A program made the position numbers and the translations under genes. Below, piece after piece: positions 15,469 to 21,210 of a stretch of DNA of 64,000 nucleotides. Below the pieces are notes generated by a model. The model was not told the origin of the DNA and searched no databases. It saw only the letters and a list, made by a program, of their open reading frames with translations. Location of the stretch: the NCBI RefSeq assembly GCF_016656965.1, contig NZ_CP067977.1, positions 1,116,001 through 1,180,000 of the forward strand. Direction: 5' to 3'. Position 1 is the first letter of the stretch; each line of letters opens with the position of its first letter. The stretch comes from Brevundimonas vitisensis (GTDB taxonomy: Bacteria > Pseudomonadota > Alphaproteobacteria > Caulobacterales > Caulobacteraceae).

Positions 15469-17592
15469 ATGTCGTTCCGCTCCACCTCCCTCGCCGCCGT
15501 CCTGATGCTCGGCGCGTCTGCTCTGGCCCTGTCGGCCAAGGCCCAGGAGGCGACCCGCGTCGACGATCTGGTGGTCACCGCCTCCGGTTTCGAACAGCGG
15601 ATTGAACAGGCCCCGGCCTCGATCACCCTGATCTCGGGACAGGAGATCCGCAGCCAGCGCGCCGGATCGATCGCCGAAATCCTGGCCGATATCCCGGGCG
15701 TCGACATCGGTGGCGCGGTCGGCAAGACCGGCGGCCTGAACATCAACATCCGGGGCCTGGGGTCGGACTACACGCTGATCCTGATCGACGGCCGCCGCCA
15801 GAATACGGCCGGCAGCGTCACCCCGAACGGCTTTGGCGAGACCTCCACCAGCTTCCTGCCGCCCGTCTCGGCGATCGAGCGGATCGAGGTGGTGCGCGGG
15901 CCGGTCTCGACCCTATATGGGTCCGACGCCATCGGCGGCGTGGTGAACATCATCACCAAGAAGGTCGGCGAAACCTGGCAGGGCACGGTCGCAGCCAATG
16001 CCACCCTGCAGTCGGACGACGAGTTCGGGAATCTGTACGGCGGCGATGTCTATGCCAATGGGCCGCTGGTCTCGGGCCTGCTGGGTCTGGCGGTCAGGGG
16101 CAGCTATCTGACCCGCGAACAGTCCTCTTTGACGTTTGACACCGTCGCGGGCACCCCCGCCCCGGTCACCGGCTTTGGCCGCAGCGCGACCGAGAGCGAG
16201 ATCTGGACCCTCGGCGCGCGCCTCAGCTTCACGCCCCACGCCGACCACGACCTGTGGCTGGACCTCGATGTGGCGCGCCAGTGGTACGACAACGCCAACA
16301 GCCAGCTGGGCACCTCGACCACGGCCGGTGGATACGGCGATGCGCTGGAGTTCAACCGCGACCAGGCGGTCCTGGCGCACGATTGGCGTCTGGGCTTCGG
16401 CGAGCTTCAGAACACCCTGTCCTGGGGCCGCACCGAGACGATCGGCCGGATCATTCCCAATGGTGTTCCAGGCGCCGGCGGTCCGCGCGATCTGGAGACC
16501 GAGAGTCTCATCCTGGACACCAAATTCTCGTCGCAGTTCGGCAACCACACCTATACCCTGGGCGGCCAGTACTGGGACGCCACCATGACCGACGGCGTGG
16601 CCCCGGCCCCGTTCGAGTTCACCCAGTGGGCCCTGTTTGCCGAGGACGAGTGGCGCCTGTCCGACACCCTGGCCCTGACGCTGGGCGGGCGATACGACGA
16701 CCATTCCACCTTTGGCGATCACTTCAGTCCGCGCGCCTATCTGGTGTGGAACGCCACCCCCAACTGGACCATCAAGGGCGGCGTCAGCCAGGGGTTCAAG
16801 ACCCCGCGTCTGGAACAGCTGGCCCCCGGCATCAACGGCTTCGGTCAGCAGGGGCGGCTGCCGCTGCTGGGTTCGCCCGGCCTGCAGCCCGAGACCAGCA
16901 CCGCGACCGAGGTCGCCTTCTTCTATGACAATCGCGATGACTTCCGTGCCAGCCTGACCCTGTTCGACAATCAGTTCGAGGACAAGATCGCCGCCGGTCC
17001 TCCGCTGGTGAACTGTGCCTTCGGGGTGTCGGCGGCCGACTATGCGGCGGGCAACTACAACCAGACCGGATGCACCGACGTCGGCTTCTTCCCCAATGCC
17101 GCCACCTTCGGACAGAGCGTCAACATCGACGAGGCGGTCACGCGCGGGGTCGAGGTCAACGCCCGCTGGGCCTTTGCCGACGCCTGGTCCGTCAGCGGCA
17201 ATTACACCTACACCGACAGCGAGCAGAAGTCGGGGGCCTCTGCCGGCCTGCCTCTGACGGACACGCCGGAGCACATGGTCAATGCGGCCCTGAACTGGCA
17301 GGCGACCGATCGGCTGTCGGCCTGGGTGCGGGGCGAATACCGGTCAGAACGCTATCGCGGCGCAGGCGCCGCTCGCGACGCCCTGGGCGACTACAAGGCC
17401 TATGAGGTCTTCCACCTGGGTGGGGCCTATGACCTGACGGACCGGGTCACGCTGAACGCCGTCGTCTACAATGTCTTCGACAAGGATTTCGTCAGCCTGC
17501 TGCCCTATGGCACCCCGGTCCTCTATGCGCCGGAATACACCAACAATCAGGAGCCGCGCCGTCTGTGGGTCTCTGTGCGGATGGACTTCTGA
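15469..17592 (+). CDS. TonB-dependent outer-membrane receptor
   Basis: A 707-residue protein with a signal peptide (to about residue 25, SAKAQ), a TonB-box-like DDLVVTAS, a plug domain (ASITLISGQEIRSQRAGSIAEIL, VRGPVSTLYGSDAIGGVVNIITKK) and a C-terminal beta barrel ending in Phe. The plug resembles CirA/FepA/BtuB-type receptors. With the Fur-like site upstream, a ferric siderophore or related substrate is most likely; cobalamin or another ligand is not excluded. Confidence 0.88.
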   Translation: MSFRSTSLAAVLMLGASALALSAKAQEATRVDDLVVTASGFEQRIEQAPASITLISGQEIRSQRAGSIAEILADIPGVDIGGAVGKTGGLNINIRGLGSDYTLILIDGRRQNTAGSVTPNGFGETSTSFLPPVSAIERIEVVRGPVSTLYGSDAIGGVVNIITKKVGETWQGTVAANATLQSDDEFGNLYGGDVYANGPLVSGLLGLAVRGSYLTREQSSLTFDTVAGTPAPVTGFGRSATESEIWTLGARLSFTPHADHDLWLDLDVARQWYDNANSQLGTSTTAGGYGDALEFNRDQAVLAHDWRLGFGELQNTLSWGRTETIGRIIPNGVPGAGGPRDLETESLILDTKFSSQFGNHTYTLGGQYWDATMTDGVAPAPFEFTQWALFAEDEWRLSDTLALTLGGRYDDHSTFGDHFSPRAYLVWNATPNWTIKGGVSQGFKTPRLEQLAPGINGFGQQGRLPLLGSPGLQPETSTATEVAFFYDNRDDFRASLTLFDNQFEDKIAAGPPLVNCAFGVSAADYAAGNYNQTGCTDVGFFPNAATFGQSVNIDEAVTRGVEVNARWAFADAWSVSGNYTYTDSEQKSGASAGLPLTDTPEHMVNAALNWQATDRLSAWVRGEYRSERYRGAGAARDALGDYKAYEVFHLGGAYDLTDRVTLNAVVYNVFDKDFVSLLPYGTPVLYAPEYTNNQEPRRLWVSVRMDF

Positions 17593-17726: not shown

Positions 17727-17803
17727 GGCCTGGTGGCGGAGTGGCTACGCGACGGGTGTGCAAACCCGCAAACCCTCCGTTCGACTCGGAGGCCAGGCCT
17801 CCA
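17727..17803 (+). tRNA. tRNA-Cys(GCA)-like sequence with irregular arms
   Basis: A 7-bp acceptor stem pairs GGCCTGG (17727-17733) with CCAGGCC (17793-17799), then an encoded T-CCA end. U8, the A14 and A21 D-loop positions and a TTCGACT T loop are present. The anticodon region reads TGTGCAAA between CGGG and CCCG, giving an 8-nt loop with GCA preceded by U, or a 6-nt loop if one more pair forms. There is also one extra G between T stem and acceptor. The similarity is to tRNA-Cys, but these extra bases suggest a pseudo-tRNA or a frameshifting variant. Confidence 0.5.
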
Positions 17804-17902: not shown

Positions 17903-18039
17903 ATGACTGTTCTGCCCCAGACCGACACTGCCCCCACCGCCGACAGGGCGACCTGGATCGCCCCCGTGCTGGATGTCATGCTGGCGACCGAGGCTGAGGC
18001 CAGGCCTTCGATCCATCGGATCCGCTGTTCGCGTCCTGA
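17903..18039 (+). pseudogene. Frameshifted short peptide gene (array member 1)
   Basis: From the ATG at 17903 the frame reads MTVLPQTDTAPTADRATW, then IAPVLDVMLATEAEA, matching the leader pattern of the other peptides in this array (W-x-A-P-x-L-D). The frame then runs on without a stop. Shifting frame right after EAEA gives AFDPSDPLFAS and a stop at 18037-18039, similar in size and style to the other tails. A two-base insertion (or one-base loss) near 18000 is the simplest explanation. Confidence 0.5.
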
Positions 18040-18052
18040 GCCGCCGCCTAGG

Positions 18053-18304
18053 TCAGACTCCGGCCAGAGACCGCAGCATGGTCAGTGCCGCGCCCTGAAG
18101 CCGGGGATCGGTGATCCGCAAATAGGCAAACACCGCATCCTGAACGTCCGGACGCGCAACCGCGTCGATCAGGACCGGCGGAACGGGCAACCGTTCCCTG
18201 GCCCTTGTCGTCGCAAACTGACCCACCTGGCCGTCGGCACCCATCGTCACCGTCCCGCAATGACCCGGCGCACGACGGATCCGTGCCATTCCGGGCGCGA
18301 CCAA
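18053..18304 (-). other. Open frame on the minus strand, possible truncated regulator
   Basis: The C-terminal half (ERLPVPPVLIDAVARPDVQ, then DAVFAYLRITDPRLQGAALTMLRSLAGV) looks like genuine helical protein and faintly like the tail of an XRE-type regulator. The N-terminal half lies in a block that is duplicated at 19420-19510, where the frame is not clearly kept. It may be a gene fragment left at a rearrangement point. No start could be supported. Confidence 0.3.
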
Positions 18305-18591
18305 GGCCGCACCAGGTCCGACTGCATCATGCGGGCCATGGATTTTGACGGGTCGTCAGGCGGAGCCGGACTGCCCCTGTCCCCCATAGCCACCCCAACC
18401 TTCTCGGGCTATCGTTGATCTACCACAGACCCCACCAGATACGGGACGCGATTATGACTGCTGCAGGCCAGGCTGAGCCGATCACCGAAGACACCAAACT
18501 GGCCTGGGTCGCCCCCACGCTGGACGTCTGCACGGCAAGCGAAGCGGAGTTTAATGCTGGTGGCGCTTCGGACGGCCTGGCATTCTCTTGA
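18229..18591. repeat. Duplicated block A, copy 1 (upstream region plus peptide gene 2)
   Basis: The block begins CTGGCCGTCGGCACCCATCG and recurs from 19420 with high similarity, including CATGCGGGCCATGGATTTT and the GCTATC(G/A)TTG stretch before the peptide start. The second copy ends with peptide gene 5. The similarity covers the presumed promoter region and the leader part of the peptide gene, then fades in the tail. Confidence 0.8.
18454..18591 (+). CDS. Short leader/core-like peptide (array member 2)
   Basis: A 45-residue peptide starting MTAAGQAEPITEDTKLAW. The central block KLAWVAPTLDVC is shared almost exactly with members 4 and 5 and is followed by TASEAE. The tail NAGGASDGLAFS differs. 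A conserved leader with a K-x-x-W-x-x-P-x-L core plus a variable Gly/Ser/Asp tail resembles RiPP precursors, especially lasso-type leaders of alphaproteobacteria. No modification genes are nearby, so the role is inferred only. Confidence 0.6.
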   Translation: MTAAGQAEPITEDTKLAWVAPTLDVCTASEAEFNAGGASDGLAFS

Positions 18592-18805
18592 AGCGCCCAC
18601 GCGGGCCCTTCCGATTGGGTCGCATCCAGCGGGCGTCTGCCCCCCCGACCGCGGATTGGGCCCTGGCGTCAACAAGCAAACCGTCTAGCCAACTTCGGCG
18701 ATCTGCATTAAGCGACGCTTCTGTGTGAAAGCTTAGCTGGCTATCGTGTCCTGTCGGCCGACCTCGGTCGCAGGTCTCTGGCAACCCATGCCCGAGGGGA
18801 TCGAA

Positions 18806-18955
18806 ATGAAAACCGAAGTCGAAATCCAGACGGCTGACCGGGTCGCTGAAACCGAAAACCGCCTGCCTTGGACCGCGCCGAAACTCGAGTTCCAACCCGC
18901 AGAGAATGCCGAAGCGGGCTCGTCCGGCACCGGGGATGCCAGCATCTTCTCCTGA
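18806..18955 (+). CDS. Short leader/core-like peptide (array member 3)
   Basis: A 49-residue peptide from the ATG at 18806, preceded by GAGGGGATC as ribosome site. It reads MKTEVEIQTADRVAETENRL, then PWTAPKLEF, a diverged form of the family core, and ends AGSSGTGDASIFS. It is the most divergent intact member and lacks the VC after the core. A perfect hairpin follows the stop. Confidence 0.55.
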   Translation: MKTEVEIQTADRVAETENRLPWTAPKLEFQPAENAEAGSSGTGDASIFS

Positions 18956-18961
18956 TCCCAA

Positions 18962-18994
18962 GCTTTGGGGATGCGGCGCTCGTATCCCCAAAGC
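18962..18994 (+). terminator. Hairpin after array member 3
   Basis: GCTTTGGGGAT and ATCCCCAAAGC form an 11-bp perfect stem with an 11-nt loop right after the stop. There is no strong T run, so it could also stabilise the short mRNA. It implies the peptides are transcribed separately. Confidence 0.6.
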
Positions 18995-19140
18995 CACCGA
19001 GACGACTGACCCCTGGCGGTGACGGCCAAGGTCACGCGGGAGCATCGGCCATGATGCTCCCGTTCGCTCATTTGTCTCGGCCGTCACTCCCTTGGGGGTA
19101 CATCCTTTCGTTAGTTATACCGCCGCGGATGGAACCGGCC

Positions 19141-19275
19141 ATGATTCCGACAGTGCAACCCTCACCGATCCCCGAGACCAAACTTGCTTGGATTGCCCCC
19201 TCGCTGGAGGTCTGTGCGATGGACCAGGCAGAAGTCCAAACCGGCATGGGTGGGGATAGCTATCAAAGCTCCTGA
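19141..19275 (+). CDS. Short leader/core-like peptide (array member 4)
   Basis: A 44-residue peptide from ATG 19141 (an ATG at 19129 would add MEPA). It reads MIPTVQPSPIPETKLAWIAP, then SLEVCAMDQAEV and the tail QTGMGGDSYQSS. The core KLAW-x-AP-x-L-x-VC is shared with members 2 and 5, and the GGDS-containing tail with member 5. The region just after the stop is homologous to that after member 5 and leads into a copy of the fliI promoter. Confidence 0.6.
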   Translation: MIPTVQPSPIPETKLAWIAPSLEVCAMDQAEVQTGMGGDSYQSS

Positions 19276-19300
19276 GGCAGGCCCTTTGCGAACAGGCGTT

Positions 19301-19420
19301 CACGGCGCGTTAACCACGATCGCCCATCCCTGATCCTCAGGTTTCGGGGATGTGGAGTGCACCGTCTGGTCAAGGCCATTGAGGCGATCGCCCCCCTGGT
19401 GGTGACCGGCAAGGTCGCGG
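19301..19420 (+). repeat. Truncated duplicate of the fliI promoter and first codons
   Basis: About 120 nt nearly identical to 19812-19931, including CGGCGCGTTAACCACGATCG, TTTCGGGGATGTGG and the first ~20 codons of fliI (reading [21 protein letters not shown]). The copy breaks off at 19420, where block A copy 2 begins. It is the scar of a tandem duplication. Confidence 0.85.
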
Positions 19421-19789
19421 CTGGCCGTCGGCACCCATCGTCACCGTCCCGAAATGACCCGGCGCACGACTGATCCGTGCCGATCCGGGCTCGGCCGAGG
19501 CCGCATACGATCCGGCTGCATCATGCGGGCCATGGATTTTTACGGGTCGTTAGTCCTGGCCACCGCTTTCTGTCTGTCGCCGATGGTCACCGCCCGCCTG
19601 TTGAGCTATCATTGGTCCCTCAACGACAGGCCCAGTGACGGGAAAGCGACCATGAATACGCCAACAAATACTGCACCGGTCACCGAAGAGGCCAAACTGG
19701 CCTGGGTCGCCCCCACGCTGGACGTCTGCGCGACAGGCGAAGCGGAAGTTATGACCGCTGCCGGTGGGGACTCCACTGGAGGCTCCTGA
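19420..19789. repeat. Duplicated block A, copy 2 (upstream region plus peptide gene 5)
   Basis: Second copy of the 18229-18591 block, joined directly to the broken fliI copy. It carries the same upstream landmarks and ends with peptide gene 5. Confidence 0.8.
19652..19789 (+). CDS. Short leader/core-like peptide (array member 5)
   Basis: A 45-residue peptide with GGGAAAG about 6 nt before the ATG. It reads MNTPTNTAPVTEEAKLAW, then VAPTLDVCATGEAEV and the tail MTAAGGDSTGGS. Leader identity with member 2 is very high (KLAWVAPTLDVC) while the tails differ, as expected when a leader is held by a recognition enzyme. The gene ends 80 nt before the fliI start. Confidence 0.65.
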   Translation: MNTPTNTAPVTEEAKLAWVAPTLDVCATGEAEVMTAAGGDSTGGS

Positions 19790-19811: not shown

Positions 19812-19869
19812 CTTTACGGCGCGTTAACCACGATCGCCCATCCCTGATCCCAGGTTTCGGGGATGTGGC
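19812..19869 (+). promoter_or_regulatory. fliI upstream region with a CtrA half-site
   Basis: GTTAACCACGAT lies about 40 nt before the fliI GTG and is kept in the upstream duplicate. A single TTAACCA half-site is compatible with CtrA control, but the second TTAA at N7 is missing. Confidence 0.4.
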
Positions 19870-21210
19870 GTGCACAGTCTGGTCAAGGCTATCGAGGCGA
19901 TCGACCCCCTGGTGGTGACCGGCAAGGTCGCGGGGGTCAGCGGTCTGTTGATCGAATCCCGTGGCGGCCTGTCTCGCTTGGCCGTGGGTGCCCGCGCCGA
20001 GATCGGGCGGCGCGGCATGGCCCCCCTGCCCGCCGAGGTCGTAGGCTTTCGCGATGCCAAGGCCCTCTTGATGCCCTTCGGCCCGGTCGAGGGCGTGGCC
20101 CCCGGTACCGATATCCGCATTATCGACCAGGCCGCCGCCGTGCGGCCCACCACGGCCTGGATGGGCCGGATCATCGACGCCTTTGGCACCCCCATCGACG
20201 GCAAGGGCCCCCTGCCGACCGGCCCGGCCGCCTATCCCCTGCGCGCCCCGCCGCCCCCGGCCCATTCGCGCGGCCGGGTGGGTGAAAGGCTCGATCTGGG
20301 CGTCCGGTCCATGGACGTCTTCACCACCACCTGCCGGGGCCAGCGCCTGGGCATCTTCGCCGGATCGGGCGTCGGAAAATCGGTGCTGCTGTCCATGCTG
20401 GCGCGTCAGGCGACGTGCGACGTCGTCGTGGTCGGCCTGATCGGCGAACGGGGCCGGGAGGTGCGCGAATTCGTCGAGGAGACCCTGGGCGAAGAAGGTC
20501 TGCGCCGCGCCGTCGTCATCGTGGCCACCAGCGACGAACCGGCCCTGAAGCGTCGCCAGGCCGCCTATATGACCATGGCGGTCGCCGAATATATGCGGGA
20601 CCAGGATCTGGAAGTCCTGTGCCTGATGGACTCGGTCACCCGCTTTGCCATGGCCCAGCGCGAGATCGGGCTGGCCGCAGGCGAGCCCCCGACCACCAAG
20701 GGATATACCCCCACCGTCTTCACCGAACTGCCCAAGCTGCTGGAACGGGCCGGGCCGGGGCCGGTGCGCCCCGACGGCACCACGGCCGCACCGATCACCG
20801 CCCTGTTCACCGTCCTGGTCGACGGCGGCGACCATGACGAGCCCATCGCCGATGCCGTGCGCGGTATCCTGGATGGCCACATCGTCATGGACCGCAAGAT
20901 CGCCGAACGGGGACGCTTTCCCGCCATCGACGTGCTGAAGTCCGTCAGCCGTACCCTGCCCGGCTGTCAGACCCCGCCCGAGCGTGAACTGAACCGCCGC
21001 GCGCGCCAGTGCCTCAGCGCCTATGCCAATATGGAAGAGCTGATCCGCATCGGCGCTTACCGGACCGGCGCCGACCCGATCGTGGACCGCGCCATCGCCC
21101 TGAACCCCGCCCTCGAAGATTTCCTGGGCCAGGACAAGGACGATCACACGTCTCTTTCCGATTCCTTTACCCGCCTGGAAGCAATCCTGAACCAGGGCAT
21201 GATCCAGTGA
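19870..21210 (+). CDS. fliI: Flagellar export ATPase FliI
   Basis: A 446-residue F1-like ATPase that powers flagellar type III export at the basal body. It has the P-loop [11 protein letters not shown], the Walker B region [23 protein letters not shown], and the [28 protein letters not shown] block typical of FliI. The GTG start at 19870 is supported by MHSLVKAIE in the family style. It is followed 16 nt later by fliJ. Flagellar genes of this type are early, CtrA-dependent genes in Caulobacter. Confidence 0.95.

Follow-up and report, generated by a model that had tools for sequence, protein, structure and literature searches.

A tandem array of small genes beside fliI in Brevundimonas vitisensis is probably an orphan precursor bank for a lasso-type peptide pathway

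The precursor array and its fixed frame

The 64 kb stretch of Brevundimonas vitisensis DNA analysed here (the window, C1:1,116,001-1,180,000 of a single-contig genome of 2.98 Mb) carries at 17903-19789 an array of four intact genes for peptides of 44-49 amino acids together with a broken fifth copy; all five are read from the forward strand (Table 1). A preliminary description, made from the sequence alone, had reported these genes and their common W-x-A-P-x-L, and the reading frames confirm both; it was also right that three of the four intact copies carry KLAW[VI]AP[TS]L[DE]VC, the fourth having RLPWTAPKLEF. The array is flanked by a TonB-dependent receptor gene and a FliI-type ATPase gene, and the gene after the latter gives a sub-threshold FliJ match. 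We consider it likely that the array is an orphan (satellite) precursor bank for a pathway of ribosomally synthesized and post-translationally modified peptides (RiPPs) of the lasso type, in which the B protein is split and a kinase takes part.

Table 1. Features of the array and further family members (plain numbers, window positions; C1, genome positions)
Feature	Position	Strand	Remarks
TonB-dependent receptor gene	15469-17592		array flank
Broken precursor copy	17903..18010	+	leader W-I-A-P-V-L ... A-E retained; core lost, frame extends to 18418
Upstream half of duplicated unit	18227..18359	+	second copy 19421-19553, 89% identical
Precursor 1	18454..18591	+	45 aa; predicted core FNAGGASDGLAFS
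Precursor 2	18806..18955	+	49 aa, or 55 aa with upstream ATG; predicted core AGSSGTGDASIFS
Precursor 3	19141..19275	+	44 aa, or 48 aa with upstream ATG; predicted core VQTGMGGDSYQSS
Truncated duplicate of fliI 5' end	19338..19420	+	source 19851-19933, 83 nt, 94%; between genes 3 and 4
Precursor 4	19652..19789	+	45 aa; predicted core VMTAAGGDSTGGS
FliI-type ATPase gene	19870-21210		array flank
Family gene	C1:1,013,964-1,014,104	-	in L004, first cluster
Three family genes	C1:1,019,990-1,020,630		L022, directly after ABC transporter, NTP_transf_5 protein and B2 peptidase (PF13471)
Two family genes	C1:2,853,163-2,853,635		L023; orphan, frame as in the array, with the ring Asp at 8 and 7
Family gene	C1:2,953,992	-	second cluster

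Lasso leaders are recognized through a YxxPxL-type motif by a RiPP recognition element (RRE), and all four intact copies possess this motif as W-x-A-P-x-L, with W in place of Y. Seven residues later stands A-E (the eighth and ninth residues past L), and in all four peptides exactly 13 residues follow, with Asp at position 8 and Ser as the last. The remaining core positions vary within the array. The preliminary description of the tails as variable thus holds for their residues, but the tails are not free, as length, Asp8 and terminal Ser are kept throughout.

This frame, which can be read directly from the genes, was written as a grammar (W..P.[LIVM]x7[AT]x, seven residues, D, 4-9 residues, S, stop). 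It matches four times in the window, each time within the array, and not once in 100 first-order Markov resamples. The grammar was composed after the peptides had been seen, and the genes of other, then-unseen genomes are a less biased check; these were in turn found with profiles that contain the Asp and Ser columns, which makes the check partly circular. One would argue that such short genes, two of them within duplicated DNA, are chance open frames or repeated non-coding DNA. We give this explanation a negligible probability: besides the empty resamples, genes 1 and 4 are identical at 17 of 23 leader residues and at only 2 of 13 core residues and yet keep the core length, Asp8 and Ser, and relatives of these genes sit in enzyme clusters.

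Enzyme clusters of the genome

None of the three PqqD-family RRE genes and none of the three genes for B2 peptidases of this genome lies in the window, in agreement with the earlier remark that no cyclase, peptidase or RRE protein is nearby. The preliminary description had proposed that lasso-like orphan precursors depend on enzymes encoded elsewhere in the genome, and by sequence comparison this appears largely right, since same-family genes are found inside enzyme clusters of the same genome. The genome-wide search that it suggested, for RRE, cyclase, peptidase and HprK-like kinase, detected all of these types, clustered with family precursors: the lasso-cyclase-like proteins and the HprK-like kinases share the clusters of the RRE and B2 genes. 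A profile search placed the family at 12 sites of the genome (E<=0.01), five in the array and seven elsewhere.

The first cluster (C1:1,007,950-1,020,633, treated as one split cluster) ends about 113 kb upstream of the array and is the nearest found. Close to its single precursor at C1:1,013,964 (L004) are an RRE (PF05402), an HprK-like kinase (PF07475), a sulfotransferase (PF00685) and a lasso-cyclase-like homologue of asparagine synthase; an ABC transporter, an NTP_transf_5 protein and the B2 peptidase precede the other three of its four precursors. Its HprK-like protein exceeds the Pfam cut-off and has the P-loop, His and DD motifs expected of the kinase; among the pathway enzymes, the Cys/His motif of B2 and the PP-loop motif of the cyclase were found as well. 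The best match of the cyclase-like proteins to NF033535 has an E-value of 6.8e-63 and 213 bits, below the model cut-off of 525. The middle of the cluster is occupied by tail-collar proteins and a GNAT gene. Here, at L004:12013-15994 (C1:1,012,012-1,015,993), consecutive phage-tail-collar-like open reading frames surround one precursor on the opposite strand, and PF07484 was confirmed in both of those scanned.

The second cluster contains the precursor at C1:2,953,992, which reads W-I-E-P-E-V-x7-T-A/G-F-P-G-V-G-G-D (the slash marks the predicted cut) and has Thr(-2), Gly1 and Asp8 at the same distance from W as in the array. Since these features are canonical, this precursor anchors the inferred register within the genome, with the motif at -15 to -10 and W at -15 in the array and in the Thr(-2) precursor alike. 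A third group lies at about C1:2.957-2.962 Mb. As an observation in its own right, the region L005:1984-14190 (C1:2,949,983-2,962,189) holds two adjoining lasso-type clusters with one local precursor found, three HprK-like kinases (one above the Pfam cut-off), two 2-oxoglutarate (2OG)-Fe(II) oxygenases, a sulfotransferase and two B2 genes.

Could the PqqD-like genes serve the biosynthesis of PQQ (pyrroloquinoline quinone)? This role was rejected: the three RREs adjoin cyclase-like, B2 or kinase-like genes, and for the one RRE scanned the lasso PqqD model gives the best NCBIfam match, with a score under the model's cut-off.

The machinery of the array is most likely the first cluster, because its four precursors have the A-E context and the closest leaders, as judged from sequence. 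The pathway type may also be right and the work be done by another cluster of the genome, such as that at about C1:2.957-2.962 Mb, which comprises an RRE, a kinase-like protein (Pfam match below cut-off), a sulfotransferase, a cyclase-like protein and B2, and for which motif scans of L005 gave no local precursor. We regard this as rather improbable in view of the leaders: those of the array are closest to the leaders of the first cluster (6-11 of 18 residues identical, BLOSUM 35-65) when compared with the pair at 2.853 Mb (5-9 of 18, 20-41) and the Thr(-2) precursor (2-4, 8-22), with ranges that overlap partly and with the precursors of the 2.957 Mb cluster outside the comparison.

Distribution in other genomes

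A profile search, a check that the preliminary description had suggested, reveals family members in other genomes of the genus and the class, some of them beside such enzymes. In the genus set (131 genomes; a confident precursor being a match at E<=1e-3 and an RRE a match to PF05402) a confident precursor was found in 5 genomes and PF05402 in 8, and all 5 are among the 8. With the own genome excluded, all four precursor genomes fall among the 7 of 130 that have PF05402 (hypergeometric 3e-6), and when all 8 foreign matches at E<=0.01 are counted, 4 of 8 have PF05402 (2e-4); both figures are flattering, as they treat related genomes as independent and the precursors of G035 and G078 are near-identical. 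Weak genus matches of E 0.003-0.005 (G020, G072, G101, G110 and a second one in G082) were kept out of the confident count. The B2-type domain alone is present in 72 of the 131 genomes and hence is little informative.

Ala(-2) precursors were observed directly beside the enzymes in relatives. In G035 a kinase, an RRE, an Ala(-2) precursor of the A-E type, a cyclase-like protein, an ABC transporter and B2 are encoded in this order on one strand; the order in G073 is kinase, RRE, Ala(-2) A-E-type precursor, ABC transporter and B2 (the cyclase was not searched for). The kinase of G035 has no Pfam match, and that of G073 has one below the cut-off, with the P-loop, His and DD motifs present. A second precursor of G073 is about 125 kb away from its RRE.

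In the wider searches at most 19 (order) and at most 18 (class) candidates per genome were scored, so the counts are lower bounds: at class level, at least 6 of 385 genomes, the own genome included, have matches at E<=1e-3. Fourteen foreign class-level places beyond the order were read, and 12 of them yield 13 family peptides in a single register, 7 with Thr(-2) and 6 with Ala(-2). All 13 end in Ser, and the acid is Asp8 in 10, Glu8 in 2 and Asp9 in 1; that Asp is exchanged only for Glu fits the prediction for a ring-forming acid. No peptide of L091 and L098 fits the pattern, four other-frame matches in L088 and L094 were judged to be chance, and a Thr(-2), Ser-ended peptide of G154 (L050, E 0.01) was kept out of the count. 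Nine of the 14 places (five genomes, other families) are at least 18 kb from the nearest PF05402 or have none on the contig. The five foreign class-level genomes have 2-18 PF05402 matches each, and several pathways may therefore share the work. G535, from another family of the class, is an RRE-rich genome, with 18 PqqD-family matches and five precursor-family matches on five contigs.

In a set of 31 different precursors, the ring Asp occupies core position 8 in 28, position 9 in two and position 7 in one, and Ser is terminal in all 31, a count that is partly circular because most rows were found with profiles including the Asp and Ser columns. Omitted from these rows were P0001-P0004, P0008, P0012, P0014, P0015 and P0018-P0020, identical or nearly so to own-genome members, and the precursors of G078 and G082. 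Together with the 13 more distant peptides, Asp or Glu is found at core positions 7-9 in 44 of 44. Thr(-2) in the same register occurs in 4 of the 31 and 7 of the 13, and Asn1 in 10 of the 31, none of these in the array. An alignment of six RRE sequences gave no clear residue that distinguishes Ala(-2) from Thr(-2) systems. A scan of genome contigs with a narrow profile returned one weak locus, of 17 residues in Alcaligenes faecalis, which was set aside.

Tandem duplication and divergence of the cores

The array has expanded by local tandem duplication beside fliI, in which a piece of fliI was copied too. This follows from a unit that is repeated about 1.2 kb apart (133 nt at 89% identity, then 131 nt at 75% across the gene) and from the truncated fliI copy between genes 3 and 4, in which 19 of 21 residues agree. 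When the 401 bases at 18200-18600 were compared with the whole genome at E<=0.01, only the query itself and the second copy were matched.

The leaders and the cores have diverged to different degrees. Between genes 1 and 4 the proportions of nonsynonymous (pN) and synonymous (pS) differences are 0.12 and 0.06 in the leader and 0.58 and 0.26 in the core; likewise, the gene at C1:1.014 Mb and the family member P0007 have 28 of 34 leader residues and 3 of 13 core residues in common. Among 21 gene pairs, 6 have a core pN above pS, and one is a tie. These data suggest diversification or replacement of the core and fall short of proving selection, because the core sites are few, an excess of pN is confined to this minority of pairs and the leader of the closest pair likewise has pN > pS. 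As the cores diverged more than the leaders, one enzyme set would give several products.

The same divergence bears on the idea of decaying satellites, that is, of precursor duplicates stranded at a distance from the cluster, whose synthesis or processing has ceased. One copy of five is broken (with a partial profile match left at C1:1133903-1134010, E 6.9e-8), the enzymes are far off, and a promoter scan gave one weak sigma-70-like site where 0.4 are expected. The other four copies nevertheless retain W and P of the leader, a core of 13 residues, Asp8 and the terminal Ser despite very different cores, and so do the database relatives of gene 4 (P0005, P0006, P0009 and P0010), which share with it 26-28 of 32 leader residues and 4-11 of 13 core residues. 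Decay thus appears improbable to us.

Proposed pathway and its assessment

For the array, the order RRE, kinase, B2, cyclase is drawn from paeninodin-type systems, and we infer each step by that analogy. A stand-alone RRE (PqqD-like B1) would bind W-x-A-P-x-L of the leader, and the HprK-like kinase would phosphorylate the invariant C-terminal Ser of the precursor before cleavage. The transglutaminase-like peptidase B2 would then cut after Ala-Glu, which places W at -15, and the cyclase would close a ring of eight residues between the freed N-terminus and the Asp8 side chain, leaving a tail of five residues; the ABC transporter would export the presumably threaded product. Additional tailoring may be due to the sulfotransferase and the NTP_transf_5 protein of the cluster. 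The Asp8/Ser-end frame, the register of an 8-residue ring, the link to a kinase, the tandem duplication and the spread to other genomes all go beyond the preliminary description.

The paeninodin type (PadeA/PadeK; SyanA/SyanK of Sphingobium yanoikuyae) resembles the system proposed here in its split B1/B2, cyclase, transporter, HprK-like kinase and C-terminal Ser (PMC9266682, PMC5067487), and that Ser of the precursor is the site of the kinase (PMC9266682). Unlike that type, the array has Ala(-2)-Glu(-1), cores of 13 residues and no adjoining enzymes. The model NF033524 (lasso_PadeA_fam) has no match among the four array peptides at E<=1, its curated score not being reached; when one precursor each of L022 and G035 was scanned along with these four, only that of G035 was matched, below the cut-off (E 0.059, 13.1 bits, cut-off 27). 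BsfA of Bradymonas shares a YxxPxL-type leader motif, an Asp8 ring, the split B, a kinase (BsfK), a nucleotidyltransferase (BsfN) and the lack of Thr(-2), and differs by Ile(-2), Gly1, a C-terminal Asp and phosphorylation at Ser3 (PMC10368454). Predicted lasso precursors with Ala(-2) are mentioned in the same report and attributed there to Kretsch 2023 (PMC10368454). In metanodin, Asn1 is a precedent for a ring residue 1 beyond Gly, Ala, Ser and Cys, while Thr(-2) is retained and the core is longer than in the array (PMC12670498); its gene was overlooked by automatic annotation (PMC12670498). The caulosegnins I-III of Caulobacter segnis are a case of one enzyme set processing several precursors, which, in contrast to the orphan array, are encoded inside the cluster (PMC13352647).

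A number of results weigh against our interpretation. All four array peptides have Ala at -2 in place of the usual lasso Thr, and in the one Ile(-2) system tested, the leader was no longer removed once Ile had been replaced by Ala or Thr (PMC10368454). The predicted residue 1 is Val in two, Phe in one and Ala in one, so that it is not small in three of four; PMC12670498 names Gly, Cys, Ser, Ala and now Asn as first residues, and Val and Phe are not among them. Precursors of the Bradymonadales have YxxPxL at -17 to -12, two residues further from the cut than in the array (PMC10368454). A cut two residues later, as this spacing would demand, was rejected, because it would move the Asp of the array to 6, outside 7-9, and would also displace the Thr of the Thr(-2) relatives. 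The array peptides have no match in NCBIfam, Pfam or PHROGs at E<=1, for which reason a phage or curated small-protein family was dropped as well. Our first, narrow profile matched 7 foreign genus genomes at E<=0.01, with PF05402 only in the best of them, G073 (2.1e-4); the others (G015, G020, G029, G037, G121 and G124, E 0.0016-0.008) have no PF05402 and are treated as chance. PF05402 lies within 5 kb in 5 of the 14 foreign places, so that dispersal is not universal. Finally, no family gene was found at the fliI loci, 1.5 kb upstream included, of 10 relatives scanned; the array is thus not conserved at that locus, and the idea that it is ancient there was dropped.

Some of these facts would suit another end: the array peptides could be substrates of the same RRE and kinase and become a different RiPP, such as a linear phosphopeptide or a branched ring that is not threaded. 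Ala(-2), the first residues that are not small and the length of only 13 residues point in this direction, as does the existence of the sulfotransferase and the NTP_transf_5 protein in the cluster. Against this stand the acid at core 7-9 in all 44 peptides counted, the lasso-cyclase-like proteins of the clusters and the relatives with Thr(-2) and Gly1, whose register is identical, and we hold such an end to be unlikely, though it is the strongest of the alternatives. The probabilities that we attach to the orphan lasso-type bank and to its alternatives overlap, and two of the alternatives alter only one step of the pathway.

In favour of a lasso-type bank, despite Ala(-2) and the unusual first residues, are the Ala(-2) precursors that adjoin the enzymes in this genome and in others, the predicted Ala(-2) lasso precursors mentioned in PMC10368454 and the Asn1 of metanodin. 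It is very likely that the array peptides work like lasso precursors. We do not class them as proven lasso peptides, because two usual features are missing, Thr(-2) in all four and a small residue 1 in three. Most likely the array is a variant within known lasso-type pathways, with unlinked precursors, Ala(-2) and cores that differ around a fixed Asp8 and Ser.

Wider significance

Genome miners seek lasso precursors beside their enzymes and usually expect Thr(-2); the array fails both expectations and is easily missed. A literature search at the level of titles and abstract starts found no description of an orphan lasso precursor array. The array is a natural experiment in which precursor cores diversify after tandem duplication while the ring residue and the terminal Ser stay fixed. 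Should enzymes encoded elsewhere mature these cores in trans, they would be unusually permissive towards the first residue and would accept very short cores, which would be useful for peptide libraries.

Prochlorosin-type libraries are similar in that one enzyme set serves many unlinked precursors whose leaders are kept while the cores change; they differ in being lanthipeptides, with another enzyme class and an unrelated leader and chemistry. A bolder idea, conceivable if somewhat doubtful, is that a lasso-type pathway has turned into a general-purpose maturation system, in which one relaxed enzyme set acts in trans, in a prochlorosin-like manner, on a dispersed, tandem-duplicating orphan library with conserved leaders and short, diversifying cores. 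Such enzymes would accept an Ala-Glu site and almost any residue 1 and require only Asp or Glu near position 8 and the terminal Ser. Dispersal is seen repeatedly, in G073 and at nine of the 14 class-level places.

Further observations

The upstream TonB receptor was considered as a partner of the array and rejected: among the 25 matches listed for it are siderophore-receptor models, all below cut-off, and no link is shown. Sulfotransferase genes (PF00685) stand in two of the lasso-type clusters, at L004:9134-9973 and L005:12362-13210, and a literature search at the level of titles and abstract starts found no description of a sulfated lasso peptide. The precursor pair of L023 is followed, within L023:4164-5291 (C1:2,853,163-2,854,290), by an aspartyl/asparaginyl hydroxylase-like gene, so named by a look at its sequence alone. 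Just upstream of the array, at 17727-17803, ARAGORN reports an odd tRNA-like match with a two-base anticodon; a decayed or atypical tRNA gene is one reading of it, and the site is a candidate for integration.

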